64,000 nt of DNA from Gemmatimonadaceae bacterium (GTDB taxonomy: Bacteria; Gemmatimonadota; Gemmatimonadetes; Gemmatimonadales; Gemmatimonadaceae), in NCBI GenBank assembly GCA_040882285.1, contig JBBEBQ010000008.1, positions 1-64,000 on the forward strand, read 5' to 3'. Below the pieces are notes generated by a model. The model worked only from the letters and a program-made list of their open reading frames with translations, was not told the origin of the DNA and did no database searches. The translations under genes and the position numbers were made by a program. Numbering within the stretch: position 1 is the first letter of the stretch; each line of letters starts with the position of its first letter. Of the stretch, positions 43,438 through 61,483 are shown in pieces.

Positions 43438-45522
43438 CTAATCGCTCAACTCAACATGGAGCGTCGTTCCAAAATATTCTGGCTTTCTAACCATACTGCG
43501 GCGCTCGCGGCGGACTTCGAACGCCTTCCTGGCGCTCTCCAAAATGGGATGAAACATCGCGGCTATTTCCTCGGCAGTGGAGGTATTAACGAGACGCGAG
43601 AGAAAATGCTGCTCCGTTTGAGGTCCACCATGGAAGATGGCGACTCGCAGGTGTTCCTTGGCTTCGTCGGTTAGTGCTCCGTCAGCTAGGAAAATAAGAT
43701 TGGCTACTAGGTTGAGCCGTGCGCTCCAGTTTTCCGGTACTGTTGCCAGTTCAAGACGAAGGTAAGTGACCGCGGCAGCGTACCGACCGACGCTGTTCGA
43801 ACGGAGGGCGAGCTCCGTGGAGGCACTGGGGGTCAGAGACCAGGCGCTTAGGGCCCTTTCGTAAATCCAGGACGGGAGCATGAGTCCCCATTGACTTGCT
43901 CTGTTGTGCAGCGCGGTCACCCACCTGTTAACCTGCATCCGAACGCCTACGTACTTCTCCTCGGCTACGCCAGCTCTGAGGCGTTCCACCACGAACCGTA
44001 TCTTGTCCACAACGAAGTACATCTCGGTGTCGTCCATGGACAGGGCGCGTTGGAATAGCGGGTGCGATCTTGCCCACTGCCCAGAGTAGAAGAGCGCGTC
44101 GCCTGCCCAGCGGAACAATTCGGCGTCGTCGCGTTTGAGGGTAGCCGCTCGTTCGTATGCCAAAGCTGCCGCCGCAAAGTCGCTGGCATGATAGAAAGTT
44201 AGGCCGATATCTCGGTGCACATACCACCGCTCCTCATACTCTGGGTGCATTGCAAGGAGAACGTCGTAAAAACGGCGAGCATAAGGCGAGTCGACGAACT
44301 GCCGGGCCAGGTTATACAAAACATCGGGCGCGAGGCGACCGGCTGTAAGGGCTCGTATCAGTAGCTCAACTGCTACGGAGCGCGACACTTCGGCCGCATG
44401 GCGTGCCCCGTTGCGGCCGTATCTCGCTCGCTCCTGAACGAGTGCCATGGTTACGGCGGTTGTGACTGGGCCATCATCAAGAGACTGGTGTATGGCAGCG
44501 CGGGCAATGTCGCTTGCCCTTGCGCCTTCCTCGAGCACTGAAGCAAAGGCCATCTGGATTAGCAGTTCTGTCCGGGCGTCTTTATCCAAGTCCGGGTGCT
44601 CGAGAAGCGCCAACGAAAGTTCAAGGCCGTGCGCCACGTCGTCCGCGTTGAATAGGCCGAACATGGCCACGATGTGAGCAATCGCGATAGCGGCACGGTT
44701 GCTAGCTGGGACGTCAATCACGATCGGTAAGCCTGGGAGGGCGCCGTCCGCCGTTGGGGGTGGCACAATCCTACAGTCTACACTTCCCGAATCGTTGGGC
44801 GTTGCGACCAAAAAGAGTGCATCTTCTCGCGGATCAAAACCGTCACCGGCTGCGATTCGGATCGGCAGTACTTGCCTACGCGCAAAGCTCTCGAGGGTAG
44901 TTATGCAGGTCTGTTTCCACGCCGCGTATGCAGAACCGTCGTGTTTCTCCGTTTCGGCGAAACTCACCCATAATGGTGCGAGAGCTGTAGCGACGTGCCG
45001 CACAGTTTCTTCCATCTCGGCGGCCATTTTAGGTCCAAGACCAGAACGCGCACATCGCGCCAACCAGTTGATCAGCGCTCGCTCTACTTCGTTTACCAAA
45101 GTCGCCGTGGTTTCCCATTCCTTCCAGAAAGCGCCTCGGGTAAACGACCCAACTTCTTCAACAAACCCGGTCGTAGCTATTTCTCGGGTGTCGGATGACC
45201 GAACGAAAACGAACACCGGCCGGTGCGCCGCACGAGCTTGGCGGTATTCCAGATGGGTTACGCTGAGCCCCTCTGGATTGTTATCCGGCGGAACGTATCC
45301 ATATCGATCTCCTATCACGAGCACCATCGCGTCTGCCGCCTCCGCTTCGTAGAGGCAAACGATCTGACTAGAATCTTCAAGCGCTGGAAGCGTTTCAGCT
45401 CGCAATACTTCGAAAACGTCAAATCTTTCGAGGGAATCAGCCAGAGCCGCTCGTTCAGCGGCGAGGTCGACCATCGTCGAGCTAATAAAAACGCGAATGC
45501 GTGGAACTTTCGTTGCGCTCAT
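43438..45522 (-). CDS. DUF4062-TPR protein
   Basis: A 694-residue protein. Residues about 8-95 are a DUF4062 domain (RVFISSTMVDLAAERAAL, ADAMVLVIGDRYGYVPP), related to TIR folds and common in defence and NLR-like proteins. The middle is helical and the last half (about 400-690) holds TPR-like units (WYVHRDIGLTFYHASDFAAA). DUF4062 is thought to act as a sensor or effector module in nucleotide-based immunity. It lies in a minus-strand cluster with two TIR genes upstream, separated from them by an IS110 fragment. Confidence 0.75.
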   Translation of the reverse strand: MSATKVPRIRVFISSTMVDLAAERAALADSLERFDVFEVLRAETLPALEDSSQIVCLYEAEAADAMVLVIGDRYGYVPPDNNPEGLSVTHLEYRQARAAHRPVFVFVRSSDTREIATTGFVEEVGSFTRGAFWKEWETTATLVNEVERALINWLARCARSGLGPKMAAEMEETVRHVATALAPLWVSFAETEKHDGSAYAAWKQTCITTLESFARRQVLPIRIAAGDGFDPREDALFLVATPNDSGSVDCRIVPPPTADGALPGLPIVIDVPASNRAAIAIAHIVAMFGLFNADDVAHGLELSLALLEHPDLDKDARTELLIQMAFASVLEEGARASDIARAAIHQSLDDGPVTTAVTMALVQERARYGRNGARHAAEVSRSVAVELLIRALTAGRLAPDVLYNLARQFVDSPYARRFYDVLLAMHPEYEERWYVHRDIGLTFYHASDFAAAALAYERAATLKRDDAELFRWAGDALFYSGQWARSHPLFQRALSMDDTEMYFVVDKIRFVVERLRAGVAEEKYVGVRMQVNRWVTALHNRASQWGLMLPSWIYERALSAWSLTPSASTELALRSNSVGRYAAAVTYLRLELATVPENWSARLNLVANLIFLADGALTDEAKEHLRVAIFHGGPQTEQHFLSRLVNTSTAEEIAAMFHPILESARKAFEVRRERRSMVRKPEYFGTTLHVELSD

Positions 45523-45584
45523 GTAGCCCAGATGTAGGAGTTTCCAGTCAAGCGAATGACTGTGCCGTCGCTTAGTTTAATCTG

Positions 45585-45728
45585 TTATGCGCGGGCAGCG
45601 CGTTCAGGACATTGATGAGCGCCTCGATCGAGACGGGCATCCGGCGCAGCTCGGCGAGCACGGTGCCCGTTCGTAATTGCCCACAGCGTGATATAGCGCT
45701 TGCGCAGGTCCAGCCCAACGAAGGTCAT
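45585..45728 (-). pseudogene. IS110-family transposase 5' fragment
   Basis: From the ATG at 45728 the frame reads MTFVGLDLRKRYITLWAI, the start of the IS110 DEDD domain. After a one-base shift it continues VLAELRRMPVSIEALINVLN. It stops after about 48 codons. The rest of the transposase is absent. A 10-bp tandem repeat (CGTCTCGCGG, 45761-45780) lies just upstream. Confidence 0.75.
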
Positions 45729-45837
45729 GCGAGCCTCCGGACGAGTTCCCGGCGAAGGGGCGTCTCGCGGCGTCTCGCGGCGACGCACCGCGAGAACCGA
45801 TGACCTTCACTTTCATATAGTCGCGCTAGTCAACTCG

Positions 45838-46230
45838 CTAGGCGGCGATTGCCTGGCGAATAGCATCCGCAGCCGCTGCAGCCGACATTCCGTGCACGTC
45901 GACGTATCGAAGACCACGCAGAACGAAATCTGCACGGTCCCAGTCGATATGCTTGGGGTCATCGAGAAACACTGGCACGACGCGCTTCCCCATGCCCACC
46001 GCAGCTCCGATCTCGAAGTTTAGCCACGTACTCTCCAGTGCCCGGCGCGAAACAAGTAGAACCATTGCCTCAGCGGTAGACAGACCATCTCGGAGGAGCG
46101 TCGACCACTGCTCCCCGGAGCCTGCGGTAGATGTCAGGTCGATCACATCTGTGTCTGGTCGCAGGGAAGCTGCGAGTTGATGCGCAAACGCGGCGTCCGC
46201 GAGAGTGTAGGAGAGAAACACTTTTTTCAC
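45838..46230 (-). CDS. TIR-domain protein 1
   Basis: A 130-residue stand-alone TIR domain: MKKVFLSYTLADAAFAHQLA (strand A/helix A), AMVLLVSRRALESTW, and the catalytic-type Glu73 in WLNFEIGAA. Bacterial TIRs of this kind hydrolyse or cyclise NAD+. Its start overlaps the previous TIR gene by 4 bp, so the two are made together and may form a heteromer. Confidence 0.85.
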   Translation of the reverse strand: MKKVFLSYTLADAAFAHQLAASLRPDTDVIDLTSTAGSGEQWSTLLRDGLSTAEAMVLLVSRRALESTWLNFEIGAAVGMGKRVVPVFLDDPKHIDWDRADFVLRGLRYVDVHGMSAAAAADAIRQAIAA

Positions 46231-46637
46231 GCGATTCCTCCGGCGGTACCGCGCGCCTTAAGTTGCTCTAGGTAGGCATCGAAATCGTTGAGACGGACGG
46301 CATTGATGTCCTCGAGAATCGCCGCACCTTGCTCGCCGGCCCTGAGGTCGGAGATCCACATTCCGTGGAAAACCGCGACCACAGGCTGTCCCTGAACCCA
46401 TGCAGCGCCAAGCTCAATCCAGACCCACGACCGCTTAGCAGACCAGGGTGTGAAGAGAGCGACGAGCTCGGCACTTTGCGAAAGCTCCCCTTTCACGACC
46501 GCTTTGAAATCGGCTCCCTTGGCGATGTCGCGGACGTCCAGGAAAGTCGTGCAGCCGGCCTCCTCGATGCAATGGCCCATCTGCGCGGCGAGCCAAGTAT
46601 CGTCAGCCCCGTGAGAGATAAACACCTTATATGGCAC
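46227..46637 (-). CDS. TIR-domain protein 2
   Basis: A 136-residue TIR domain: PYKVFISHGADDTWLA, TTFLDVRDIAKGADF, AELVALFTPWSAKRSW and Glu75 in WVWIELGAAW. The GTG at 46637 is the preferred start (GGAG 5 nt upstream, and TIR begins at once); the frame is open to 46700. It is followed by TIR protein 1 with an ATGA overlap. The gap to the TPR gene upstream is about 110 bp. Confidence 0.85.
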   Translation of the reverse strand: MPYKVFISHGADDTWLAAQMGHCIEEAGCTTFLDVRDIAKGADFKAVVKGELSQSAELVALFTPWSAKRSWVWIELGAAWVQGQPVVAVFHGMWISDLRAGEQGAAILEDINAVRLNDFDAYLEQLKARGTAGGIA

Positions 46638-46748
46638 ACGATCTCCGCTGAGTTGCCTTGACGCGGCGGGTTTCGCTGCACGCCTGTCTAGGCGCACCAA
46701 AGATCCCGCGTGTTAGCAGCAAATCCACGTTACGCCACACTTTCAGCG

Positions 46749-48098
46749 CTAGCGGTCTTGAGGTAGTGTACTGACGTATTCGTCCAGGCTGGCGAGCGCC
46801 GCGGACACCTCCTTCTGGCGGAGCAGCTCGGGCGGCAGAAGCTCAAGCGTCCTCCTGAAGGTCATCGGGTGCCATGCGGCTGTACACCACTCCAAGGCGT
46901 TCTCTATGGCTTCCCCGAACCCAACGTAATTGCCTTGCAGGAGCCGCGCGGTGGCAAGGTCAAAATGACTCCACGGAGCGTTGTATGGCGGGCGAGCCGA
47001 GGCTTGTGTTGCCGAGACTCGGTCAGCCCGACGTAGCGCCGAGAGTTGTTGCACGCTCAATTTGAGAACTCCTGCGATGTGCGCTTGCAGGATTATTTGG
47101 TTGATGAGTGGGTACGCATGGCCGAACGATGCGTCGCTTGCGGCCGTGTAGGCGGCTAGTGCCTCGTCATAGCGTTCCGCCCGCTTCAGAATCCCGCCGA
47201 GTGAGGCAAGTGCATCGAAGTCTGATGGGCGATGCTCCAACGCTCTCATCAGCGACTGTTCGCCAGGAAGCTGATCAGGACCGGAAGCGCGCTGTAGCTT
47301 GTTTTCCGCGATCCCGAGTTCTCTGTAAGCCTCCGCATACGTGGGTGCCAGTGTTACAGCGCGTTCGAACATCTGAAGAGCGGCGGTCCAATCGCCCTGT
47401 TCTTTGAACACCAATCCTAGCCGTAGACACAAGAAAGCGTTATCAGGAACCTCTCGAATCGCATCTTCAAGTCTCACTCGTGCCAGGCCCCAGTCGCGCT
47501 GACGGATTGCATTCTCGGCGTCTCTCACACCGTTCTCGACGAACGCAGGTGCGGCCTGCTGTTGGCGCAACGCGGCTTGCACCGGGCTGTCGAGCCGATT
47601 CTCTCGAAGAGATTCTGTGAGAACTCGGGTAATTAGTTGGCGTGACTCATCTGCTCGATCACTCGGCTCAGAATCGTACGAAAATACACGGGTTTGTCCG
47701 ATATCGAATGGAATTACGGTGTCAGGTTGCCGGAATATCGCTGTGCCGCTTGCATGCGCTCGATGACGATGGCCGAGCTCATATGCCACGTTGAAGCTTA
47801 GTCCGGTGATGTCGACTAGCGTAAACCGGGAGTACTCGAGTAGCTGATACATCTCCGCCGTGATAATGCCACTCACAAATTCTTGGTCACATCTGTGCGG
47901 CGTGAGGTAGCCCGCGCCTGGTTCCGGGAGCGGCGTCGCGCCGATAGCAGGCCGAAACACATTCTCGTAGATGAAGTCGAAGTCGACCACATGAGGCCGG
48001 CGCCAAGGCCGATACCAGCGCCGCAGAGTTGCCCCCATCTCGACCTTACCGAAGGGCATCACCACGAAGCAAATGCGAGAGTAATCCGCAGCCGCCAC
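46749..48098 (-). CDS. deoxyribosyltransferase-like/TPR protein
   Basis: A 449-residue protein. Residues about 8-150 resemble nucleoside 2-deoxyribosyltransferase/SLOG-related folds: CFVVMPFGK at the start, IYENVFRPAI, and the candidate catalytic Glu107 in NVAYELGH. Residues about 190-420 are TPR units (ALQMFERAVTLAPTYAEAYR). Such fusions are seen in predicted defence loci and may cut N-glycosidic bonds of NAD or nucleotides. It follows the SLOG gene by 12 bp, forming an operon TIR-SLOG-this gene. Confidence 0.65.
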   Translation of the reverse strand: MAAADYSRICFVVMPFGKVEMGATLRRWYRPWRRPHVVDFDFIYENVFRPAIGATPLPEPGAGYLTPHRCDQEFVSGIITAEMYQLLEYSRFTLVDITGLSFNVAYELGHRHRAHASGTAIFRQPDTVIPFDIGQTRVFSYDSEPSDRADESRQLITRVLTESLRENRLDSPVQAALRQQQAAPAFVENGVRDAENAIRQRDWGLARVRLEDAIREVPDNAFLCLRLGLVFKEQGDWTAALQMFERAVTLAPTYAEAYRELGIAENKLQRASGPDQLPGEQSLMRALEHRPSDFDALASLGGILKRAERYDEALAAYTAASDASFGHAYPLINQIILQAHIAGVLKLSVQQLSALRRADRVSATQASARPPYNAPWSHFDLATARLLQGNYVGFGEAIENALEWCTAAWHPMTFRRTLELLPPELLRQKEVSAALASLDEYVSTLPQDR

Positions 48099-48110
48099 GC
48101 GCGATCCCCG

Positions 48111-48659
48111 TTAGAGTGTGTTCACTACTTCGATTTGCACACCTAGGCGCTGGGCGGCGTCGGCAAACTCGGCGGTGAGATCCTCATCTCCTCGCTTAGC
48201 GCCCTCCCAAATTATTACTGCCAGCGGTGTGGCCTGACTTACTTGAGCGAAGGCCATCACTTCGCGCCAAATAGCATCATTTACAGCCCTATAAGCCGCG
48301 ACGGAGTCGCCTTCGCAGTTTAGAACATGAAGCCGTCCTGCTGCCTCCGCCGATGATATGACGCTATCGAACATCGGGCCCCATCGGGCGTCCGGCCGGT
48401 CAGTTACTGAAGTCTTCTTGAATTGAGCTGGGGCAAATGGGAGAACGATCGTGCTCCCTATTCCCCGTCGTTCGGCTAGCGTGAGAGCTAAGAGGTCGGC
48501 TCCGCAGGCTGCTGACGATACTAGGCGATGCGGCTTCCACGCAGCGAAGTGCCGCTCCAGTTTTGTTTCTACTTTCGGAACGGATTTTAAAGGAAACCGG
48601 GCGATGCGGGCGCCCTCGGCGTCGATTCTGCGGCCAGCGACGCCAACTACGCTGGACAT
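48111..48659 (-). CDS. SLOG-domain protein
   Basis: A 182-residue Rossmannoid SLOG protein: VVGVAGRRIDAEG opening, RLVSSAACGADLLALTLAER (GxDxLA core) and IVLPFAPAQFKKTSV. SLOG domains bind nucleotide ligands such as cyclic ADP-ribose isomers in Thoeris ThsA. Its ATG overlaps the TGA of the ThsB-like TIR gene (TGATG), which implies strict co-production. No SIR2 or membrane effector is fused to it. Confidence 0.75.
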   Translation of the reverse strand: MSSVVGVAGRRIDAEGARIARFPLKSVPKVETKLERHFAAWKPHRLVSSAACGADLLALTLAERRGIGSTIVLPFAPAQFKKTSVTDRPDARWGPMFDSVISSAEAAGRLHVLNCEGDSVAAYRAVNDAIWREVMAFAQVSQATPLAVIIWEGAKRGDEDLTAEFADAAQRLGVQIEVVNTL

Positions 48660-49075
48660 CAATAGGTATTCTTCGCCGCGCGAAGTGCTTCCACGATGCG
48701 GTCTCTTTCAAAGCTTGTGGCCCACGCGGTGCCGACATTGAGGAGACCCGGCGGAGTGACGTTCGCCTTTCCCAGCTTTACGCCCGCCAGTCTCAGCTTA
48801 ATATCGGACTCTTTAGATCGATCGATTTCCCACGTCATCCACTTGCTTTTGTGGCTCTTCTCTCCGACAAGTACGAGCAAATGTGTCGACGTTTTCATCA
48901 TGCGCGTGAGCGACTGCTTCACGACGGAGGCATCGGTACTGTCGATAGCCACATCCGGACCGCGGCTGTCGAACTCGAAGTCGAACTCAGGGTTCGCATT
49001 CCATGCCAGAAGTAGCCGCTTGTAGTGAGCGTCGTCGGAGTGGTCGTAGCTAACGAATACCTTTTGCTTTGCCAT
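48659..49075 (-). CDS. ThsB-like TIR protein (DUF1863)
   Basis: A 138-residue MTH538/DUF1863-type TIR protein: KVFVSYDHSDDAHYKRLLLA, THLLVLVGEKSHKSKWMTWE with candidate catalytic Glu83, and IKLRLAGVKLG. This is the family of Thoeris ThsB, which turns NAD+ into a cyclic ADP-ribose-type signal on phage infection. The ATG at 49075 has AGGTGA 5 nt upstream. It leads the operon with SLOG and the deoxyribosyltransferase/TPR gene. No ThsA (SIR2-SLOG) gene is present in the window. Confidence 0.8.
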   Translation of the reverse strand: MAKQKVFVSYDHSDDAHYKRLLLAWNANPEFDFEFDSRGPDVAIDSTDASVVKQSLTRMMKTSTHLLVLVGEKSHKSKWMTWEIDRSKESDIKLRLAGVKLGKANVTPPGLLNVGTAWATSFERDRIVEALRAAKNTY

Positions 49076-49231
49076 TTCAGTCACCTCGTTCACCGTTAGA
49101 TGTTAGTGCTGCAAATCGATATACCTCGCCCGTGTGACGTGCCGCCGCACCAATGAACTGCGGCGAAGCATCCTAATTGTGAGTATACTCGGCGCATCGC
49201 TGGCGCTTGCTCCATCGCCATCCAAACAAAA

Positions 49232-49381
49232 CGACCGCCCTTTCAGGCGGTCGTCAACTACTAATAGTAGTAGTCCTGCCTTAGCCTACTCCCCCGACGC
49301 CTTCCTCCGCCGCGGCGGACTCGACTTCTTCGCCGCCGTTCGCTGCTTCTTCGCCGCGATCTCGACCGGCACGATGTCCGG
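49232..49381 (-). pseudogene. kamA 3'-end copy B with terminator
   Basis: On the minus strand 49381-49286 encodes PDIVPVEIAAKKQRTAAKK, then SSPPRRRKASGE and a stop: the last 31 codons of kamA. The hairpin CGACCGCC/GGCGGTCG (49232-49253) and a perfect ACTACTA-A-TAGTAGT palindrome follow, as after the other copies. Similarity ends abruptly at about 49381. Confidence 0.9.
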
Positions 49382-49452
49382 AAGGATTTTGTTTATTCGT
49401 TGACGATGATTCCAAGAGTCGGGTTCACGCTCGCACGGCACAGATCAGGATG

Positions 49453-50232
49453 TTACATGTGCCAGCGCGCCGTGTACGCAGCACACAACTGGTTAAGCAT
49501 GCGATCGTACTCCGTGTCCACATCAATTCCGCAAGTATTGGGACGCGGAATCGAGGGCGGGTTGACGTTGTCTATGTTCACCGGCACGAGCAGCACAAAG
49601 TCGTATCCAGCGACGTGCGTGTGACCTGGCTTTCGCGTGGGAAGCTTCTGGAGCATGGAGATTGTCTTTGCCGCGTCGGTCGCGGAATTCCGGCTAATCG
49701 CCCAGGAGAATTCGGTCCATAGCGTTTCATCGCCGGATGAGAGGCGGGGAAGAACCTTCGCGACAAATTCGTCTTCGCGATCTCTGAAGAACGGATGGAC
49801 CTGGTCGGGGATGTTCAGCACCCGCTGGGCTAGACCTACCAGAACAGTGGCGACAAGGAGCGCTTCGGGGCGAGCGGAGTGAATGGCTCCGAGTACCTTG
49901 CTGAGGTCGTCGAACCTGTTGGTCCGGTTCCGGTGCGCGGTGATTACCGACTTATTTTCTAGTGCGATTCTGACGCCAGGGATGTGCAGCTCTCCCGCCG
50001 GCCCGGGCTCTCCCACGAAAAGGTCAATCTTCCGCAGCCGGTCGCCGGGCGAGCGAACATTGATCCACACCTTCACGATCCCGGCGTCCACGTCCGACTT
50101 CAGCGGCGCGCAGCGCTCCAACAGATCCTTGTAAAGTGCATTGCTGACGACGTCCGAATGCCCTTCGAGCCGGTGGTTGTGGTAGCCAGCTTCTGCAACC
50201 GCGACGATCGCCTCGTCGAACGGCGTGGTCAC
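49453..50232 (-). CDS. PD-(D/E)XK restriction endonuclease candidate
   Basis: A 259-residue protein with a nuclease core: Asp70 in RKIDLFVG and Glu92-Asn-Lys94 in RIALENKS, fitting the D...E-X-K catalytic pattern of PD-(D/E)XK enzymes. The GTG start at 50232 overlaps the methyltransferase stop (GTGA), a common arrangement in type II R-M operons. The recognition site is unknown. I infer it cuts the sequence protected by the adjacent methylase. Confidence 0.65.
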   Translation of the reverse strand: MTTPFDEAIVAVAEAGYHNHRLEGHSDVVSNALYKDLLERCAPLKSDVDAGIVKVWINVRSPGDRLRKIDLFVGEPGPAGELHIPGVRIALENKSVITAHRNRTNRFDDLSKVLGAIHSARPEALLVATVLVGLAQRVLNIPDQVHPFFRDREDEFVAKVLPRLSSGDETLWTEFSWAISRNSATDAAKTISMLQKLPTRKPGHTHVAGYDFVLLVPVNIDNVNPPSIPRPNTCGIDVDTEYDRMLNQLCAAYTARWHM

Positions 50233-51611
50233 GCGGTAAGCTTGTGGGCGGGGCCAGCCTCGAAGAGATCGTCCTGGATTGCGGGCGCGAATGTCTCCGG
50301 AACGGGCAGGCGCTTGAGGATGTGCGACTGCATCCGGAGGTAGTCTTTCGCTGCGCGCTGGCAGTGATCGCGGAGCCATTGCTGTGCCGGGGGCGCATTG
50401 AGATAGGCCGCGAGCTCCGTGATCCGGCTCGGATCGGCCGGGACGATGTAGTAGACCGAGTGGCGGGGCACGATCCGCCCTTGTTCGTCGGGGACGAAAT
50501 ACGGGGCGACTCCAATATCCTTGCAGAGCAGTTTGGGACGGAGCAAGTCCCCGAGCGGGGGCGTCTCATGGAACGCATACCATGGCTTTCGTTCGACACA
50601 GGTGCGCGCGAGCAACTGTGCGCGGCGGGCGGGCTCCGCCAGATAACCTCCCAGCTCGCCGAGCCTATGCTCGGGGAGCAGCTTCCCGTTTCGGTCGTAT
50701 GGCACGAGCATCGAATGACTTTCGACCGGCGGGCGATCTGGCTCGAGATGTCGCCCGGCAATCGTGGGATACGCGAATTCCTTAAGCCCTTCGTCCAGCT
50801 CGGAATTCCGCACGACGAAAACGGAATCCGCTCCGGTCGCGACGCCGCAGCTGATGCGAAGACAGATGTCGCCGAGCGTAAGGGTGTCGGCGTCATGCTC
50901 CGCGCCGAGTACGGCAGGCAGCCAGGAGCTTGAATCGGACGGTAGCCGCACCCTGCGGGCGGTGTCATCCCGAAGACGAACCAGCGTTTCGGCGCGCGGC
51001 CGCTCCTTGACGACGGTGGATACCAGCGGATACGTGACAAGGTTGCCGAACGTAGCTTCGTCCAGGAAGTGCAGCTCTTCTATAGTGTTGCCGTGGAGAA
51101 GGCTCCGGAGCGGCGCCGCGGTCCGGACGTAGAGGAATTTTTCGGGCGTGATATAGACAAGCCGGCCGCGCGGGTTCAGCAGACTCAAGGCGCGTTCGAA
51201 AAAGAGCAGGTAAAGATCGAACCGGCCCTGTGCTGTCGCGTAGCGCTTCCGGTATTCGGTGCGCTCGACCGGGGAGAGTCCGGTGATGGCAACGTAAGGT
51301 GGGTTGCCGATGATGTAGTCGCAAGGATTTGTTGCCGTCAGAAGAAAATCGGCCTCGTGAATCTCGATCTGATCAATTCCGGCGAACCGATCCCGGGAGA
51401 ACGCAACGCGGGCGGGGTCAGAGTCCACGCCAATGAGACGGGGGAGCGGAACTTCGCGGCTCGCGCACCAGCGGACGACGCCATCGAGGAAGACGCCTGT
51501 ACCGCAGCCGGGATCGAGGACGGTGGAGCCGGGCGATGGCGGCCCATTTCGAAAAAGCTTCTCGACCATCAGGTCGACGACTGCGGGTGGAGTTAGGGCG
51601 TAGCCTTTCAT
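50229..51611 (-). CDS. N6-adenine DNA methyltransferase
   Basis: A 460-residue gamma-class amino-methyltransferase. SAM motif I is DPGCGTG (33-39), motif IV is NPPY (103-106), and a target-recognition-like part occupies about 230-430. It is the TaqI/Eco57I-like type with methylase and recognition in one chain. It should methylate adenine at an unknown site. A 257-bp gap separates it from the GHKL ATPase gene upstream on the same strand. Confidence 0.8.
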   Translation of the reverse strand: MKGYALTPPAVVDLMVEKLFRNGPPSPGSTVLDPGCGTGVFLDGVVRWCASREVPLPRLIGVDSDPARVAFSRDRFAGIDQIEIHEADFLLTATNPCDYIIGNPPYVAITGLSPVERTEYRKRYATAQGRFDLYLLFFERALSLLNPRGRLVYITPEKFLYVRTAAPLRSLLHGNTIEELHFLDEATFGNLVTYPLVSTVVKERPRAETLVRLRDDTARRVRLPSDSSSWLPAVLGAEHDADTLTLGDICLRISCGVATGADSVFVVRNSELDEGLKEFAYPTIAGRHLEPDRPPVESHSMLVPYDRNGKLLPEHRLGELGGYLAEPARRAQLLARTCVERKPWYAFHETPPLGDLLRPKLLCKDIGVAPYFVPDEQGRIVPRHSVYYIVPADPSRITELAAYLNAPPAQQWLRDHCQRAAKDYLRMQSHILKRLPVPETFAPAIQDDLFEAGPAHKLTA

Positions 51612-51868
51612 GAGGACGGCTGGGTCCGCTGGGGATTCCTGTAGAGTGCGAGTGCGTCAGGCGTCAAGCGAAAAATCATTCATCAATGATACTGGTGTCG
51701 CCGCGTTCCGGCGCAGCCATCGTTTTGCGCCGACCGCGGCCGAATGCCTGTTACGGCGGTTCGCTCCCTTTCTTTTACGCAGTAGATACCATCGCGCGTT
51801 TAAGCACGAGGCGCTGGTCCTGGGATCGCACTGCTCAGCTTCTCACTCTTATCTCACCTATCGCTCGC
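51612..51868. other. gap inside R-M operon
   Basis: No convincing gene is seen on either strand. Short frames here have unlike codon use. It may hold a promoter for the methyltransferase/nuclease pair. It is somewhat less GC-rich than the flanks. Confidence 0.4.
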
Positions 51869-54073
51869 TCACGATTCCTCGGGGCACTGGAGCTTGTGTG
51901 CGATCGGCAGAAACAAAGAGAAAAACTTCGTGTAATCAGCGTAGTAGAGATCCCAGTCTGCATTTTCGTAATCTTCTGGATTTGCTATGATATTCTGCCG
52001 CACCAATCGGTAACACACAGCATCAGCGACGATCTCAGCGACAAGAATACGGAAGTGCTTTTGCTCCTGGCCTGGGAACCCTGCCGCCTTAGCACCTAGG
52101 TATCGTGACAGCGACGGATGGCGCGCGGCGATTTCCAACACATTATTCCGCCAGCGGGAACGCTGGTGTTTCAGATCAATGTCCTCAAGCTGGATTGACA
52201 GCTCCGCACCGGGCGGGTGCACGGCTTCGAGTTCGGCCATGGCTTCGCTTCCCGCAGCTGAGACGGTGATGGTTCCCGTGGTGGGCACGCCATCGGATAC
52301 CAACACGAGCTCGCCCTGGGCGATGCGCAGCTTTTCGTTCGGACGGATGATTCGTGGACCGGATAACTTGAAATGACGGCTTGAAACCGCTACCTGCAAT
52401 TCCGCCGGCTCTGGAAACGCACTGATGGGCGCGAGAATACGAAGCCGCTTTCTTGAGCCATCCGTATGGAGACGGTATCGCTTGTTCGCGAAGCGCAGAG
52501 TGTCGACATCCCTGAATCTGTCGGCTTCCTCTGTGAACACTTCAATCACGCTTTCAGCCACAACGGGCCCAATGCGAGCCCGCACGCCGGATGCGGATGT
52601 CTGGTTAACTGCCTTGACGGTCCAAATTGCCCTCAAGACGCCGTCCTGCTGCGGGTGAGGATGCAATGTGACCAACCGTTGGTGCGACTGAACGTCCGCA
52701 GTGAGGCACTCGATCTGCACACTCGCGCCGCTTTCAATCTCTGGAAACACTTCTTGGTTCACGGTCAGCCAGAACCTTTGAGAACGTCCCAGGACCATCT
52801 GTGCGAACGGCGGGCTGAGCAAGTATCCCCGCGTCCTGAATTGACTTCCTGCTTGGTACCCCTCAGGGTCCCGGGCGACGTCCTCGTCGTCGCCGTAATC
52901 TTGCATGAACTTTGCCGCCGCCTTTTCCAGCGCATTCAAACGCCGGCGAGTGGCATCGCTTTCTATCGTGGCTCGCTGGCGCTCTTCTCGTTGCCGCTCC
53001 TCTTCGACAAGCGGGCGCAGCCGTTTTAACGCTTCGCGGAACAGGGCCTGGACGAACGGATGTTGTCGAGTTAATCCAGATTGCCGGGAGGGGTCCAGTA
53101 TCGGTATCGCGTTAGCGCTATCCGGCTGAAGATCCTGCTCGAAGCGGTCGTCGAATTCGTTCCACAGGTCGTCGATGTATGCGCAAGTAAGTCTTCCATG
53201 AAACCAGAGCGCATGTGGATCAGTTTCGAGTTCGGGATCAAAGTAGGTGGCCTCGTGTACGCCGTGTCGGGATTTTACCAGGATGCCGCCGAGGCGGAAA
53301 CGATTGGATTCACGCTCAAACGGCGTCGGTGCTCGAGCGATCACAAGTTTGGCTTGCGCGCCCGTATAACCAGGTATCGAGAATGTTTCCTTTACGCGAT
53401 CGGTGCTACCGATCTGCGGTGCGCTCAACTGCACGGGTTTTGGACGACTCGAGTCTCGCAGAACGACGGTGCGTTTGGGATCGCTCAGGATGTCTCGGAG
53501 TGCCACCATGTGTTGGATGCGAGCGCGCAGCGTTTCGTGCTGAGGGAGAGAGTGATTCGGTCCAACGCTGAGGGAGACAACCGTCCCCGATCCATCGGTA
53601 ATTCCCACGCTTGAACGGCGAACGGGTGTGGCTTCGTGCGTCCCGTGGGTGCGGAAGACAAAGCCGTCGGTGATTTCAGAAATATGTAACTTGCCGTCGG
53701 CGGCCGCGATCGATTCGAATCGTACAGAGCCGAGCGCCGCGATATCTTTTGCTCCGCGTGAATTCGTGCCGCGAACGCTGAGCCCTGCTTCAAGACCGCT
53801 CACCCGCCCTCCGGTTCTGGAGAGCTTGTTATCCATATCTACCAGGGTCATGCCATCAGCGAAATCGCGCACTTGCAGCAGCCGCTGTGATTTGCTTCGC
53901 TCAATCACTATCTCGATCCGGCCCGCTGTTCCAAGCTTCTGGTAGCGGTCATCTGCATTGGTGACGAGCTCGACGATGGCGTCGTAAACGTCCCGAATAG
54001 CGAGACGCGCCTGCTGCATCACTGAGCGCCGATCGCCTACGACATATTTCCCTTGCTCGGGTATTGTGGTCAC
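51869..54073 (-). CDS. GHKL (MORC/MutL-like) ATPase of R-M system
   Basis: A 734-residue protein. The N-terminal about 20-200 is a histidine-kinase/Hsp90-like ATPase: N-box AIVELVTNADD (Glu35, Asn39), RDFADGM, and lid GTNSRGAKD (about 102-110). A transducer-like domain, a coiled coil (about 335-370, EEERQREERQRATIE) and a long beta-rich part follow. GHKL ATPases of this kind are known in some R-M operons and are the prokaryotic relatives of MORC proteins. The GTG start overlaps the upstream winged-helix gene by 4 bp. Confidence 0.7.
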   Translation of the reverse strand: MTTIPEQGKYVVGDRRSVMQQARLAIRDVYDAIVELVTNADDRYQKLGTAGRIEIVIERSKSQRLLQVRDFADGMTLVDMDNKLSRTGGRVSGLEAGLSVRGTNSRGAKDIAALGSVRFESIAAADGKLHISEITDGFVFRTHGTHEATPVRRSSVGITDGSGTVVSLSVGPNHSLPQHETLRARIQHMVALRDILSDPKRTVVLRDSSRPKPVQLSAPQIGSTDRVKETFSIPGYTGAQAKLVIARAPTPFERESNRFRLGGILVKSRHGVHEATYFDPELETDPHALWFHGRLTCAYIDDLWNEFDDRFEQDLQPDSANAIPILDPSRQSGLTRQHPFVQALFREALKRLRPLVEEERQREERQRATIESDATRRRLNALEKAAAKFMQDYGDDEDVARDPEGYQAGSQFRTRGYLLSPPFAQMVLGRSQRFWLTVNQEVFPEIESGASVQIECLTADVQSHQRLVTLHPHPQQDGVLRAIWTVKAVNQTSASGVRARIGPVVAESVIEVFTEEADRFRDVDTLRFANKRYRLHTDGSRKRLRILAPISAFPEPAELQVAVSSRHFKLSGPRIIRPNEKLRIAQGELVLVSDGVPTTGTITVSAAGSEAMAELEAVHPPGAELSIQLEDIDLKHQRSRWRNNVLEIAARHPSLSRYLGAKAAGFPGQEQKHFRILVAEIVADAVCYRLVRQNIIANPEDYENADWDLYYADYTKFFSLFLPIAHKLQCPEES

Positions 54074-54705
54074 CTATCGGCCCTGGTGTGCGATGCCCCG
54101 TAAGCTTTCCGGCACGCGAGCAGGAATTCGAGGACGTCGGTTTGGTCGGCGACGGTCGCTTTCCCACGGAGACCGTCGAACCGGTTCATCCACACCTCGT
54201 CCGGAGCGTCGACGCGGCAACGGAGAAACTCCGCGAGCTCACCGAGCGAGGGGGAGAACGCGCTCGGTTCCGATGAGTACGTGCCGAAAAGCGGGTGCGA
54301 ACGCAGCCGCGCCAACTCCTTCAGAATTCTCTGACGGTGTGGCTTGGTCCGCGGCTTTTCCTCCAGAGACTCGAACTTACTCGAGTTGTCGCGCACCCAT
54401 TGAACGCCGGTTTCGGTGAGCATCCAGCCATCAAGCAGAGGACCGCGGTTTGTCTTCGTTGCGTGCCCACGCCCCTCTCCGGAGCGCCCCTCCACCAATG
54501 CGCCCCATTGTTCCTTCCGCGCGTCGATTAGAGCTACGCGAACGATATCCTTATCCGGGAAATGTGTATATCTCGTCCAGGAAAACGACGCCGGAAACAG
54601 TTCATGGCACTTGGCGGCTATGTCCTCTGTGTGGACGCGTTTAGACTCTCCGCCCAAGAGGCTGAGGACATAGACGGCAAGTTCTCGATTCGGGAAATCC
54701 GGCAT
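54070..54705 (-). CDS. winged-helix-like partner of GHKL ATPase
   Basis: A 211-residue protein. The first about 90 residues (VYVLSLLGGESKRVHTEDIA, then FPDKDIVRVALIDARK) look like a winged-helix domain; the rest is helical with FLRCRVDAPDEVWMNRF. It is the first gene of the R-M-like operon and its stop overlaps the ATPase start. A role in DNA binding or in loading the ATPase is inference. Confidence 0.6.
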   Translation of the reverse strand: MPDFPNRELAVYVLSLLGGESKRVHTEDIAAKCHELFPASFSWTRYTHFPDKDIVRVALIDARKEQWGALVEGRSGEGRGHATKTNRGPLLDGWMLTETGVQWVRDNSSKFESLEEKPRTKPHRQRILKELARLRSHPLFGTYSSEPSAFSPSLGELAEFLRCRVDAPDEVWMNRFDGLRGKATVADQTDVLEFLLACRKAYGASHTRADR

Positions 54706-54784
54706 TCCTAAGTCTTTAAGTCAGCGAATGTTCAGTCAGTTGCGACAGCATTCATCGATAAGCGACCCTGTATCGTTGGTTTAC

Positions 54785-54898
54785 TTGTACGTGACCCGGT
54801 GCCCTGACATAGTTCCAGGATCATCTCGTTGTCGTGGATATCGTGGACGTATCCCGGTAGTAGCAAAGGCGCCAATGCCGCCAAGGCGGGGTAGCCCG
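54785..54898 (-). pseudogene. decayed kamA 3' fragment
   Basis: The plus-strand text CTTGTACGTGA, then CTCGTTGTC and GACGTATCCCGG aligns in register with the intact kamA at about 61712-61800, at roughly 70% or more of positions. On the minus strand LPGYVHDIHDNEMI parallels LPEYVEEINDDEVI. Indels are present and no terminator follows. It lies directly after the stop of the 58-codon gene at 54899. Confidence 0.55.
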
Positions 54899-55319: not shown

Positions 55320-56501
55320 TTAGCCAACACGGCTGCGAGACTTCGTCAGTTCCCACTGAAGAATGGCCTGGGAAACCGCGTTGTAGCTGATTCGCCACGC
55401 AATTGCATTCCGGCCAACATACTCTGGACGGCTGTTCTCGCGTTCATGCACCTCCTTGATCCCGAGAACGAGTTCTTCGATGCAGAGGTCCAACAGTTCA
55501 TCTATTGGGACCTTCCAAGAGAAGCTGCCTTTCGGTTTGTTCCAAATCACGTTGGCGCGAAACCCCGCCAAGAGGGGCATCACCCAACCCAACGGGATCC
55601 TTCCGTCGACAGTTTCGCCCAAGAAGATGAGCTGGTTTCCACGGTTGCTTTCGCTGCGGACACGGGCGGCTTTGCCAGCCTTGTATCGCCCAATCGGCTG
55701 ATCAAGAGCCTTTTTCTCGATCAAGTCTCGCAGACGCAAAATCTCGGGCGCACGACTGATAAGCATCCGAAAGCTCTCACCGACTTTGGCATCTGCTGCT
55801 TGCTCGGCAAATCGTCGTACAATTCCTTCTTTTCGCCCGAACAGTGCAACAGGGTGCCGCTTGTCATCGTACACACTGCAGTCGAAAACGGCGAGGTAGT
55901 AGAGAATCTCCCGGACATCAACGGGCTTGTCCTCATTCATTCGATACGCGATCTGATCGGCGTAGCTCTCACGGGCGATAGCCTTCTGAAGATCTTCAAA
56001 ATGCTCCCGTAAGTTTTCGAGGCTTTTAAGATCAACTTGTTGGCTCGTGTTCAAGCCACCAGCAATCTCGGCAATCTGGTCGGCTTCCACGCCGACTACA
56101 GCCTTGATAAAGACGAACGCCGGCCAGCCATTCTCTGGCGGTGACGCCTGCGCCTCCAGGACCGCATCCAGGGTGTGCGCGCCGTCCACGACTCCGTGCA
56201 GCTTTGCGTCATCGAGGGTGAGGATAACTTCATGGCGCTTGTCGTCGAAGGAAATGTCCTCGGCGACGATGGTGATTCCGCGATTGCGCTCGTGGAAACG
56301 CTCCGGCTCCTGAGTGACCGTTTGCATGATGGCCTTGTACACGGCGCTCCGCCGATTGACCTCGCGCGGGTTCACGTCGCGCCAGTTCCAAAGATCCCGG
56401 GGAAGACTCGAAGCTGGGACATAAAAAACACCGACACGGGAGATCCCGGTCGGCGACGGAATGGAGCGGAACTGCTTGGTGGGGAATCGAAGGGTCGACA
56501 T
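55320..56501 (-). CDS. AIPR abortive-infection protein
   Basis: A 393-residue protein of the AIPR family, linked to abortive phage infection. Family signs are FHERNRGITIVAEDI (about 70-84), DAKLHGVVDGAHTLDAV (about 97-113) and GLNTSQQVDLKSLEN. Its biochemical action is not settled. The ATG at 56501 has GGGAG 5 nt upstream. A strong promoter with two upstream direct repeats lies at 56609-56668. It stands alone, between the 58-codon gene and the secreted protein at 56793. Confidence 0.75.
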   Translation of the reverse strand: MSTLRFPTKQFRSIPSPTGISRVGVFYVPASSLPRDLWNWRDVNPREVNRRSAVYKAIMQTVTQEPERFHERNRGITIVAEDISFDDKRHEVILTLDDAKLHGVVDGAHTLDAVLEAQASPPENGWPAFVFIKAVVGVEADQIAEIAGGLNTSQQVDLKSLENLREHFEDLQKAIARESYADQIAYRMNEDKPVDVREILYYLAVFDCSVYDDKRHPVALFGRKEGIVRRFAEQAADAKVGESFRMLISRAPEILRLRDLIEKKALDQPIGRYKAGKAARVRSESNRGNQLIFLGETVDGRIPLGWVMPLLAGFRANVIWNKPKGSFSWKVPIDELLDLCIEELVLGIKEVHERENSRPEYVGRNAIAWRISYNAVSQAILQWELTKSRSRVG

Positions 56502-57502: not shown

Positions 57503-58393
57503 TCAAGCATCCTCGACCCGGCCGATCTCCTCTTCCGAAAACATGCCCGTCTTCTTGAAGATGCTGCCATCCTGGGAGACGTGCCCCATTTCTTCCTCGG
57601 AAAACATGCCTGTCTTTTTGAAAATCCTGCCGTCGCCATCGACGCGATGTCTCTCCTCTTCGCTGAACATGCCGGTCTTCTCGTGCGTATGTCCGGACCC
57701 GTCAACGCGTGCTACTTCATCCTCCGAGAACATTCCGGTCTTCTTATAGATTCGCCCGTCGGCGTCAATGCGACCAGCCTCGCTCTCAGAGAAGACGCCC
57801 TCCTTTCGATAGAACCGTTGGCCTCGGCGCCCAGCCGCGGAGAGAAGATCATCATCCTGGTGACTCGACCGGGAAGTATTGGTTGAATCGTCCGAGCTTG
57901 AACTCGAACCCATACTCATCACCCAGCTGATCAGACCGATGATGAGGATGAGGAGCAGAGCCGCGACGACGACATAGGCGACAGCGGCCAAGAGTGCAAC
58001 CATCGCCGCCCAGAAGTAGAGGGCAACCGCAAGGCGAACGCCCGACCGGGCGGAGGGATCCGGGATGTTCCTTGTTCTCGTCCAGAGCCACGCAGATCCA
58101 CCGCCAGCTGGCTGCGCGAAGTACTTGGCGACCTTATTCGATCGGGAGTCGGACCAGGCGCTCACCCTCTGAAACAGCCCCTGTCGGCTGTCGACCCACC
58201 GGTTCACCGCATCGCTCTGGAGGGTAGCCGCCATCGCGCCAATGATGGCAGGCCCGAGTCCGAGGATCAGGCTCCATGAGTGACCGGCGAAGGCGGCCGT
58301 CGCGATCAGCACAACAGTCGCGAGCGCGGCGAGGATGCGGCTACGATGCTCGCGAACCAGTGACGCGGCGGATACGGCAGTGGGTTCTTGCAT
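57503..58393 (-). CDS. membrane protein with five 22-residue repeats
   Basis: A 296-residue protein. Two hydrophobic regions lie at about 18-60 and 120-158, then a Ser/Asp-rich linker. Residues about 190-294 hold five tandem units of about 22 residues built on GRIFKKTGMFSEEE and a VDGDG turn. The repeats resemble beta-flower-type GxIY repeats in pattern, but I do not recognise the family. They lie on the cytoplasmic or outer side of a membrane anchor. The gene sits in defence-type DNA between a secreted protein and a conserved hypothetical. Confidence 0.6.
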   Translation of the reverse strand: MQEPTAVSAASLVREHRSRILAALATVVLIATAAFAGHSWSLILGLGPAIIGAMAATLQSDAVNRWVDSRQGLFQRVSAWSDSRSNKVAKYFAQPAGGGSAWLWTRTRNIPDPSARSGVRLAVALYFWAAMVALLAAVAYVVVAALLLILIIGLISWVMSMGSSSSSDDSTNTSRSSHQDDDLLSAAGRRGQRFYRKEGVFSESEAGRIDADGRIYKKTGMFSEDEVARVDGSGHTHEKTGMFSEEERHRVDGDGRIFKKTGMFSEEEMGHVSQDGSIFKKTGMFSEEEIGRVEDA

Positions 58394-59050: not shown

Positions 59051-59328
59051 CTTCTCGCTCCTCGTTCACGTTGGTTGCCGCATAACTTCTGATTACACCG
59101 CCATGATATACTGCGAAGACCAGGAAAAGTTTGCATGAAGCCCCGCAACACTTGCACATCTCCACGCCTACCTGGCGAGACGCAATCCCGCAGTGTGAAA
59201 AGACATCTCTCTTTGACTGCGCTCGGAGAATTTGTGAAAAGCTGCGAAACTTTCGCAGGCTAACTCCGAAGAACACGACGGAGAGTCTTGACGTCGCCAG
59301 TCGTTGGCGCATCCCCCGCCAAACAAAA
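59051..59328. other. non-coding gap before kamA copy C
   Basis: No gene is supported. The last about 40 bases resemble the sequence before the terminator at 49232, so the copied block extends a little beyond the hairpin. Confidence 0.4.
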
Positions 59329-59911
59329 CGACCGCCCTTTCAGGCGGCCGTCAACTACTAATGGTAGTAGTCCCTGCGTTAGCTACTCCCCCGACGCCTT
59401 CCTCCGCCTCGGTCGGCTCGCCTTCTTCGCCGCCGTCCGCTGCTTCTTCGCCGCGATCTCGATCGGGACAATATCCGGAGTGCCTGACCCGTCGTACGGC
59501 TTGGGCTGCTTGTACGTGAACCGCTGACCCTGGAAGTTCCGGAAGATCACCTCGTCGTCATTGATCTCCTCGACGTACTCCGGCAGCAGCGGCACCTTGC
59601 CGCCGCCACCCGGCGTATCTATCACGAACTGCGGCACCGCCAGCCCGCTCGTCCACCCGCGCAGCGCCTGGATGATCTCCAAGCCCTTCTGCACGGTCGT
59701 CCGGAAGTGCTCGCCGCCGGCGACCTGGTCGGCCATGTATATGTAGTACGGCCGCACGCGCGCCTTCAGCAGCTCGTGCATCAGCTTCATCATCACCTTC
59801 GGGTCGTCGTTCACGCCGCGCAATAGCACGGTCTGACAACCCAGCGAGATCCCGGCCTTCGAGAGACGATCAAACGCGGCCACGGCTGCCGGCGTCAGCT
59901 CGTCGGGTCCG
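59329..59911 (-). pseudogene. kamA 3'-third copy C with terminator
   Basis: Minus-strand 59911-59383 encodes the last 176 codons of KamA (from PDELTPAAVAAFDRLSK to KASGE and stop), including the PLP-lysine region TPGGGGKVPLLPEY, with few differences from the intact gene. The radical SAM CxxxCxxC part is missing; upstream sequence is unrelated from about 59912. The CGACCGCC/GGCGGCCG hairpin (59329-59350) and ACTACTAATGGTAGTAGT follow the stop. Confidence 0.92.
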
Positions 59912-59951
59912 GAGAGTCTGAAAATCCTGGTCTCTGGTGACGACCACCTAG

Positions 59952-60500
59952 CTATGCTCCCGAGCTTGGACGGCTGGAAGCTTCGCCAGCACCCCACCGC
60001 GATTCCAAAAGTCCTCGCGTAGCACGCTCGGGAATCAGCGGTTTCCGCACGGTGCTGCTGCAGAAACATGGGGTCTCGGCTAGCGCTGCTTCGACGAACG
60101 GAAGGGTCGTGTCGTCCCACGCATCCCGGGACAGGTGATATGGAACCGCGAATGCAAAATCCACCATGATGCCGACCACCGCACGATCGGCGGTTTTTGC
60201 GACGTGGACCGGCGTCATGGCTCCCAGCTCCGCGTCGATCAAGTCCGGGTGGATACCGAGACGTCCCAGCCGCTGTGCGACGACGTCCCGGAGCCGCGAC
60301 GGTAGCGCGCGCAGATCACGCGCGGGCAGCAGTATCGGCAGGAGCGATCGCGAGCTTACGAGGAGCAGCAATGGCCTGCGGTCCACCACGAGCCGATTGG
60401 CGTACCAGTCGCCGAGCGCGGTACTGGAAGGCGGGGCGTCCCCGGGCGTTACCGTGAGCGCCGAAGCCAGTTTCTGGGTACGCCTGAGAGTTACCGTCAA
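59952..60500 (-). CDS. DUF6933-like protein
   Basis: A 182-residue protein with the DUF6933 pattern: DWYANRLVVDRRPLLLLVSS, LGAMTPVHVAKTADRAVVGI and MVDFAFAVPYHL. The first codon appears to be TTG at 60500. The family is a small cytoplasmic protein group of unknown function often near TA genes. A copy of the kamA 3' end lies 40 bp beyond its stop. Confidence 0.65.
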   Translation of the reverse strand: MTVTLRRTQKLASALTVTPGDAPPSSTALGDWYANRLVVDRRPLLLLVSSRSLLPILLPARDLRALPSRLRDVVAQRLGRLGIHPDLIDAELGAMTPVHVAKTADRAVVGIMVDFAFAVPYHLSRDAWDDTTLPFVEAALAETPCFCSSTVRKPLIPERATRGLLESRWGAGEASSRPSSGA

Positions 60501-60594: not shown

Positions 60595-61113
60595 TCAACG
60601 CTTGACCACGCGCCTGCTCCGGTGAGCGGGATGTCCGCTCTTAGCGCCCGCAGCCGCGGCACTCACTTTTCGACGGAATCCGGTTCGTTGCACTATGTGT
60701 GCAGCCCGTGCCATCTGCGCTGCTCGAATCGCGGCAGTCGGCTTGCGGGGGAGGATCGTGGCTCGGATAACGTCGGGACGAAGTTGGACGATCTGAAGTA
60801 AACGAGCGGCTGCTCCCCCAGGCGGTGCTTTGCCTTGCTCCCAGGCTTTAACTGTTTCCGGGCTCACGTTGAGGGCCGCAGCAAAAACGGGCTGCGAGAT
60901 CTCGAGGTCTTTCCGGATTTTTCTCACGTCCGCCGCACCGAGTTCCGGTGCCGGTTCCGCCTCGACCTCCCGAGCTGTCACGGCGTACCTGCGCACCGCG
61001 GCTGGCTCTCGATCACCGCGCTCGATATCCACCACTTCACCCATTGCCTGGATGAGGCGCTCCCCAAAAGTCTGCTGGGGCTTCCGGCCCCCCTTCTTCC
61101 CGATGTTCCTCAT
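60595..61113 (-). CDS. HTH antitoxin (HigA2/RelB-like)
   Basis: A 172-residue XRE-type protein: VRKIRKDLEISQPVFAAALN, VSPETVKAWEQGKAPPGGAA. The N-terminal about 50 residues are linker-like, and a long basic tail follows the HTH. Its ATG overlaps the toxin stop (TGATG). It should neutralise the RelE-like toxin and repress the operon. Confidence 0.8.
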   Translation of the reverse strand: MRNIGKKGGRKPQQTFGERLIQAMGEVVDIERGDREPAAVRRYAVTAREVEAEPAPELGAADVRKIRKDLEISQPVFAAALNVSPETVKAWEQGKAPPGGAAARLLQIVQLRPDVIRATILPRKPTAAIRAAQMARAAHIVQRTGFRRKVSAAAAGAKSGHPAHRSRRVVKR

Positions 61114-61448
61114 CACTCTCCCTTTAGAACCTTCCGGAGCTTCGCGAGTTCCTTCTTTTCATCTTCAGTAATGTTGGTCTTGACGTTCTTCGTATAGACG
61201 TCGAGCAGGTAAATCCGACCTTTCTCGAGCATGACGAAATAGATGACTCTGGCACCGCCACGTTTCCCCTTGCCTGAAACCGCGACGCGAATCTTCCTCA
61301 CTCCAGCGCCCGGGATTACATCGCCACCCATCGGGTTGCGCAGGATAGCCTGCTCGATAGTCCTCTGGAGGACGTCGTCAACGATGCCTTTTGCCGCAGC
61401 GGCATAAGAGTCGGTGAGAATGAACTCGTAGTAGGTGACGTTGCTCAC
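61113..61448 (-). CDS. RelE/HigB2-type toxin
   Basis: A 111-residue RelE-fold toxin: YYEFILTDSYAAAAKGIVDD, DVIPGAGVRKIRVAVSGKGK, GGARVIYFVMLEKGRIYLLD and VKTNITEDEKKELAKL. The GTG at 61448 is chosen because a promoter (TTGCGT-N17-TATACT) ends 6 nt before it, so the message is probably leaderless; the frame is open to 61532 but crosses that promoter. The antitoxin follows with an overlap. Confidence 0.8.
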   Translation of the reverse strand: MSNVTYYEFILTDSYAAAAKGIVDDVLQRTIEQAILRNPMGGDVIPGAGVRKIRVAVSGKGKRGGARVIYFVMLEKGRIYLLDVYTKNVKTNITEDEKKELAKLRKVLKGE

Positions 61449-61483
61449 CGGACAAGTATAGTAATGAATACCATAGAACGCAA
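61446..61483 (-). promoter_or_regulatory. leaderless promoter of RelE/HTH pair
   Basis: Minus strand: TTGCGT (61483-61478), 17 bp, TATACT (61460-61455), 6 nt, then the GTG at 61448. The -35 hexamer and geometry match the higBA promoter at 30582-30618. Confidence 0.7.

Follow-up and report, generated by a model that had tools for sequence, protein, structure and literature searches.

Gene content of the locus

The window, that is, the whole stretch of 64,000 nucleotides analysed here, belongs to a Gemmatimonadaceae bacterium (GenBank assembly GCA_040882285.1, contig JBBEBQ010000008.1). It carries four consecutive genes on the minus strand, accompanied by a further gene upstream and by partial copies of kamA:

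about 59310-60120, minus strand: partial copy of kamA that borders the segment at high coordinates
55320-56501, minus strand: AIPR-family gene (PF10592, 1.9e-25), upstream on the same strand and judged separate
54776-54864, minus strand: degenerate internal kamA fragment in the gap between the AIPR and winged-helix genes (92-column alignment, 74%)
54070-54705, minus strand: winged-helix protein, open reading frame of 211 aa, first gene of the winged-helix and GHKL pair
51869-54073, minus strand: GHKL ATPase of 734 aa, with a predicted GHKL and S5-like domain, a coiled coil, a beta-rich region and a helical C-terminus
50229-51611, minus strand: adenine-N6 DNA methyltransferase of 460 aa, with motif I before NPPY and a (weak) TaqI-like C-terminal specificity region
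49453-50232, minus strand: putative PD-(D/E)XK restriction endonuclease, 259 aa counted from the overlapping GTG
49213-49382, minus strand: copy of both the 3' end and the terminator of kamA, low-coordinate border of the segment

An earlier note on this DNA had placed the four genes at these positions, and the open reading frame calls agree. The 4-nt GTGA overlaps that it described at both junctions (winged-helix/GHKL and methylase/nuclease) and the gap of 257 bp between the two pairs are confirmed by the sequence. The motifs that it named for the GHKL protein, the methylase and the nuclease hold when their positions are checked, and its domain calls for all four genes are right. Its account did not include the AIPR gene, which lies 614 bp from the winged-helix gene on the same strand, or the flanking kamA 3'-end repeats.

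An intact kamA gene at 61586-62752 is followed by the partial copy (here 59383-60120), by the 3'-end copy at 49213-49382 and by a copy of 51 bp at 41104-41154. The kamA fragment next to the winged-helix gene aligns with 50.0 bits, versus 33.7 bits for the best of 200 shuffles, and is probably a recombination scar. The sequence after kamA differs in three genomes of the same genus; in G245, kamA is followed by genes for a different GHKL protein, a receiver-domain protein and an N6 methylase. With its repeated kamA 3' ends and variable content, the region has the appearance of a hotspot for insertions at the 3' end of kamA, which would account for unrelated systems lying head to tail. An integrase was not recognised in the examined parts of the segment. 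Adjacency inside such a hotspot can be mistaken for an operon.

The AIPR gene has close relatives in two others of 200 genomes (75% and 67%), and tblastn revealed none of the other four window genes near them in the stretches read; for one of the two (G064), only the downstream side is informative, as the AIPR gene has no more than about 700 bp of contig in front of it. Since both relatives stand without the winged-helix and GHKL pair and the kamA scar lies in between, AIPR was judged unlikely to be a member of the same module.

The methylase and nuclease genes and their linkage

The methylase displays DPGCGTG at position 33 and NPPYV at position 103, that is, motif I followed by NPPY, and matches the Pfam models Eco57I (1.5e-21) and, below the cut-off, TaqI_C (0.0025). 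The nuclease has no match in Pfam, PADLOC, NCBIfam or PHROGs. Its residues D70, E92 and K94 are identical in all five aligned sequences, an alignment that excludes L051, with its internal TGA, and also L054 and L055, which are sisters of L053. Conservation across aligned relatives indicates that these nuclease motifs, as well as those of the GHKL protein, are not due to chance.

A methylase search at E <= 1e-60 across 298 Gemmatimonadota genomes recovered close relatives in four, three of them besides the window's own (G029, G040 and G111; loci L049, L050 and L051). In each of the three, the nuclease gene is located directly 3' of the methylase gene, overlapping it or nearly so, although in G111 its frame is interrupted by an internal TGA. 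Nuclease relatives exist in 9 of the 298 genomes, the window's own included. Weaker ones in G059, G209 and G259 (n=3) come after another methylase gene, which in the one that was checked (L053) belongs to PF01555; G196 gave a weak match only, G276 has just a nuclease remnant, and a remnant of the nuclease is all that L052 holds. Methylase relatives with 40-46% identity are present in three records of haloarchaeal plasmids, the fetched stretches of which do not contain the ATPase pair. At one of these plasmid loci (L034), the upstream gene resembles a different PD-(D/E)XK protein by eye and has no Pfam match. Searches for nuclease relatives in plasmids and for methylase relatives in viral contigs were empty. 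Very probably, the two genes form a type II R-M system, and we infer from homology that it performs methylation and restriction: the methyltransferase would mark adenine in a target sequence and the nuclease would cut targets that are unmarked.

The earlier note had regarded all four genes as one R-M operon. This idea has not survived the comparison with other loci, as each pair occurs without the other at every one of them, and the four-gene set that the note proposed to look for in other genomes (298 Gemmatimonadota genomes and further loci) is seen only here. No ATPase or winged-helix relatives lie in the fetched stretches of G029, G040 and G111; the methylase and nuclease thus lack the ATPase pair at 3 of 3 other close loci, which is the pattern that the note itself had connected with two separate systems. 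Among the 298 genomes, the 12 with the ATPase and the 9 with the nuclease have only the window's genome in common. On these linkage counts the whole four-gene operon was rejected, and it is highly likely that two separate systems lie side by side.

It could still be imagined that the four genes make up a single ATP-dependent R-M system, in which the GHKL and winged-helix proteins gate or license cutting by the nuclease. The shared strand, the GTGA overlap within each pair and the 257-bp gap fit such a system, and relatives at L037, L038 and L072 are matched in their GHKL domain by a BbrUII/HgiDII restriction-enzyme model. R-M neighbourhoods that contain GHKL ATPases have moreover been described, as have many R-M operons with AIPR (Iyer, Abhiman, Aravind 2008, PMC2292703, in the part consulted). 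However, the consistent separation of the pairs elsewhere, together with the single genome shared by the ATPase-bearing and nuclease-bearing sets, makes this very improbable. Promoter and terminator scans, the 257-bp gap included, remained at chance level, with no clear signal between the pairs, and an Rfam search gave no match. Because the pairs are co-oriented, 257 bp apart and not divided by a clear promoter or terminator, a joint transcript is possible at this locus.

The winged-helix and GHKL genes

The only Pfam match of the winged-helix protein, SCNM1_acidic (9.6e-4), is below the curated cut-off, and PADLOC, NCBIfam and PHROGs gave no match. Its predicted model (4 sequences, pLDDT 78) consists of a MarR/PadR-type wing fold in residues 1-120 and a helical C-terminus. 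With VIA-align, residues 1-120 are best matched by SSV1 F-93 (1tbx; Z 11.2, rmsd 2.2, 88 aligned), and many MarR entries score Z 8.8-9.8 against the model; Foldseek alone yielded no match below 0.001.

GHKL ATPases of this general type are proposed prokaryotic kin of the eukaryotic MORC silencers, and to our knowledge few of them have been characterised. In the protein of the window, the motifs are E35-TNADD (N-box), DFADGM at 70 and GTNSRGAKD at 102. The N-box, G1 and G2 motifs are present in 14/14 aligned relatives, which argues for an active ATPase. The profile matches are few: HATPase_c is hit weakly (0.0046), PADLOC, NCBIfam and PHROGs are not hit at all, and a comparison of the family profile with solved structures by sequence returned just two matches, at E 0.52. 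The predicted model, built from 14 sequences, has a pLDDT of only 61; in residues about 16-370 it shows a GHKL domain followed by a second (S5/transducer) domain. Foldseek relates it to Hsp90 (9.2e-11), SMCHD1 (1.1e-8), topoisomerase VI (2.4e-8) and MLH1 (4.2e-8), and VIA gives near ties (Z 15.5 to 14.0) for GRP94, topo VI-B, SMCHD1, Hsp90 and MORC3. At this pLDDT, residues about 16-370 superpose on 1mu5 with Z 15.0 and rmsd 6.4 over 296 aligned residues and on MORC3 (6o1e) with Z 14.2 and rmsd 5.3 over 283. A GHKL and S5 architecture, as in MutL, topoisomerases, Hsp90 and MORC, is therefore supported by the model.

Among the 298 Gemmatimonadota genomes, the ATPase profile is found in 12, the window's included, with 12 full-length copies in the 11 others; a fragment of 51 aa (G173 C14) is not counted among these, and L003 and G151 C35, being one record, are counted once. 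The neighbours of the copies vary from locus to locus, and tblastn (E 1e-3) detected no methylase, nuclease or AIPR relatives near the ATPase at L002, L003 and L018-L030, where L022 (a contig of 5.3 kb) and L029 have little visible flank. A winged-helix relative was located in this set at L002 only, with the window proteins as tblastn queries. The winged-helix profile, too, is without a match in the 11 other ATPase-bearing genomes, an empty answer that alone shows little, although the same profile did recover the window's genome and G128. The 12 copies without a detectable winged-helix gene suggest that ATPases of this family can act alone or with a diverged partner. GHKL searches of plasmids, phages and viral contigs were empty.

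The winged-helix gene is rarer. Its profile occurs in 2 of the 298 Gemmatimonadota genomes, the window's, with one copy at this locus, and G128, with two; within the window's own family these are the only two among 179 genomes. Altogether, five winged-helix loci were found, in two bacterial phyla and on one IMG/VR contig, and in 5/5 the very next gene downstream, on the same strand, encodes a GHKL protein. The intergenic distances are small: a gap of 13 nt on an Elusimicrobia MAG contig (L002), an overlap of 14 nt and a gap of 1 nt at the two G128 loci (L037 and L038, respectively), and a gap of 45 nt on the viral contig IMGVR_UViG_3300037264_002389 of 129 kb (L074), whose GHKL protein matches the family profile of the window with 99.3% probability over 416 columns. 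The two GHKL proteins of G128 are much shorter and divergent (545 and 548 aa; HATPase_c_3 2.2e-15 and 3.2e-14), so that the pairing survives a large change of the ATPase. Methylase or nuclease relatives are absent from L002, L037 and L038 by tblastn and from L074 on reading of its open reading frames. In the Elusimicrobia phylum, the genome of L002 is the only one to contain the winged-helix gene (203 genomes) or the ATPase (198 genomes). A module that moves horizontally would be expected to show such a rare and patchy occurrence. Winged-helix relatives were not found in plasmids, nor were those of the L074 protein in phages; for the L037 and L038 proteins, one GHKL match (28%) is present on a Rhizobium plasmid, in a neighbourhood without a winged-helix relative by eye (open reading frames of at least 120 aa). 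On the basis of this recurrent arrangement, the winged-helix and GHKL genes appear as a real unit separate from the R-M pair, an undescribed two-gene module. No report of the pair was found in the literature searched, a scope that leaves aside subscription papers and preprints, and a nuclease or other effector was not identified in the module.

Could the AIPR gene nevertheless belong to it, as part of a reduced Mza-like system? Mza comprises the sigma-like MzaA, the ATPase MzaB and the AIPR protein MzaE, and has a defence-locus GHKL ATPase in common with the present genes. The AIPR gene, on the same strand and 614 bp upstream, weakly matches MzaE (0.0033). Both G128 pairs are adjoined by a divergent gene of 730-733 aa, the L037 copy of which matches Sigma70_r4 (4.5e-5) and, weakly, MzaA (4.5e-4); weak MzaB matches come from the GHKL genes at both loci (6.7e-4 for L037 and 2.4e-4 for L038). 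However, all these scores are far under the curated cut-offs (for MzaE, 16 bits against 1050), the ATPase of the window has no significant MzaB match in PADLOC or NCBIfam, and a Z1 helicase gene is not recognised here. The kamA scar and the absence of the pair from the stretches read around the two AIPR relatives also speak against it, and a reduced Mza is very improbable. The upstream flank at L002 is short: only 201 bp of contig precede the winged-helix gene, and an AIPR gene could lie further upstream there.

The intact ATPase motifs, the S5-like domain, the coiled coil and the dedicated DNA-binding partner suggest an ATP-gated closure on DNA with winged-helix targeting. The GHKL protein would dimerise on ATP binding and close as a clamp on DNA, the winged-helix protein would load or target this clamp, and foreign DNA might thereby be bound and then blocked or silenced, with no nuclease of the module's own involved. 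The clamp, the loading role and any role in defence are tentative proposals. It is more speculative still, and rather doubtful, that the pair represents an undescribed nuclease-free mobile module for defence or inter-virus conflict, with a MORC/topoisomerase-like ATP-gated clamp and a dedicated winged-helix loader, as a functional counterpart, in bacteria, of MORC silencing complexes. Taken as a whole, an independent type II R-M pair and a separate winged-helix/GHKL clamp module in a kamA-repeat region form the best explanation of the locus, with a probability of about 0.7. A fairly ordinary R-M pair is in this way told apart from a two-gene unit with a previously unrecognised winged-helix partner, and the compact pair, with its dedicated DNA-binding partner, would be a tractable object for asking whether such ATPases clamp DNA.

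The main rival is that the winged-helix and GHKL proteins regulate the R-M genes downstream. The pair is placed directly upstream of them, the winged-helix fold is MarR/PadR-like, and there is a precedent in CapK and CapS, a kinase and a repressor encoded upstream of immune operons: CapK is a GHKL kinase with an HTH-STAS-GHKL layout and CapS a STAS-wHTH repressor, according to the consulted portion of PMC13373217. As here, a GHKL protein and a winged-helix protein are encoded by two adjacent genes. Pfam, however, shows no STAS match in either protein of the window, and membership was rejected on this ground, with the proviso that a very divergent STAS could escape; instead of STAS domains, the GHKL protein has a second, S5-like domain and matches Hsp90 and topo VI-B. 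Furthermore, no recognisable immune operon lies directly downstream at the four other pair loci, and the R-M pair is found elsewhere without the winged-helix and GHKL genes. Regulation of this kind is thus unlikely.

Comparison with known systems

The methylase and nuclease resemble those type II R-M systems in which a gamma-class, Eco57I/TaqI-like adenine methylase is accompanied by a separate nuclease: the genes likewise overlap, the pair is conserved (in three other genomes) and so are the catalytic residues. The nuclease family, by contrast, falls outside the four profile collections searched. Pairs of receiver-like and HK-like proteins near R-M systems have been described as well (Bellieny-Rabelo et al. 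2021, PMC8011034, as far as the consulted part extends), from which the present pair differs in that its winged-helix protein resembles a receiver neither by Pfam nor in its fold.

VcSduA, a Shedu protein (paraMORC3), has the GHKL ATPase in common with the window. The ATPase mutant E27A of VcSduA loses anti-phage activity, as given in the consulted part of PMC12137116, and this precedent indicates that defence can depend on the ATPase activity of a GHKL protein, although VcSduA has a PD-(D/E)XK (DUF4263) domain of its own. The GHKL protein of the window has no DUF4263 match in Pfam, and no Pfam nuclease match was seen in the 14 family members, whose C-terminal part was covered only within whole proteins; paraMORC3/Shedu is characterised by an RE-fold nuclease at the C-terminus.

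The earlier note had called the ATPase MORC/MutL-like. In a wide sense MORC-like is apt, since GHKL motifs followed by an S5 domain, as in the MORC family, are present in the window protein (model pLDDT 61); in the strict sense it is not. The S5-domain motif of MORC, GhXhhpXXRhl in the consulted part of PMC2292703, occurs in 0/14 family members, and Hsp90, topo VI-B, SMCHD1 and MORC3 match the model about equally, so that a special tie to MORC is not supported. Membership of MORC was rejected on motif grounds, as was that of paraMORC2 (ExxxH near 282/283 in 8/14, absent in six including L002) and of paraMORC5 (C-terminal HxH in 1/14). With the prokaryotic MORC and paraMORC1-5 proteins, as that same portion of PMC2292703 presents them, the window ATPase shares an intact GHKL domain, an S5-like domain, a long C-terminal extension and a neighbourhood with R-M and AIPR genes. 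It differs from them in that the MORC motif, ExxxH and HxH are not conserved, a helicase gene is not recognised, the R-M genes are unlinked elsewhere, and its partner is a winged-helix protein.

Repeated kamA ends and their cargo

Behind an intact copy of kamA, the 3' end of this gene recurs several times in the window, the whole array extending from 41092 to 62752:

61586-62752, intact kamA (lysine 2,3-aminomutase)
about 41.1, 49.2 and 59.4 kb, repeated kamA 3' ends
59952-60500, DUF6933 gene, overlapping the partial kamA copy

The sequence that follows kamA is not the same across the same-genus genomes compared (stretches L064, L070, L071 and L072). In appearance, the array is an insertion hotspot of a defence island, with the kamA 3' end as the site used.

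Genes lying within the array

Between two of the repeats, at 43438-49093, lies a cluster that encodes three TIR/ThsB-like proteins and a weakly SLOG-like protein, whose YAcAr match (0.0092) falls under the cut-off, as well as the following:

within 43438-49093, a DUF4062 + TPR protein and a separate TPR protein

The interval that separates the partial kamA copy from the intact one holds two small genes (60595-61532); by eye, their sequences resemble a RelE-type toxin and an HTH antitoxin. The gene at 57503-58393 probably encodes a membrane protein; in its translation, read by eye, units of about 25 residues around KKTGMFSEEE are repeated head to tail.

Neighbours in related genomes

Both winged-helix and GHKL gene pairs of the Gemmatimonadota genome G128 (loci L037 and L038) are accompanied by a divergent gene:

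L037 9263-11455 and L038 9683-11884, Sigma-70 region 4-like proteins of 730-733 residues, divergent from the pairs

The L037 protein weakly matches MzaA, the sigma-like protein of the Mza defence system. In the same-genus genome G245, the genes directly behind kamA (L072 6340-10855) encode a GHKL protein, a Response_reg protein and also an N6 methylase. The GHKL protein has two ATPase regions, one being HATPase_c_3 and the other a histidine-kinase HATPase_c. The set is reminiscent of the receiver and histidine kinase-like elements described close to restriction-modification systems.
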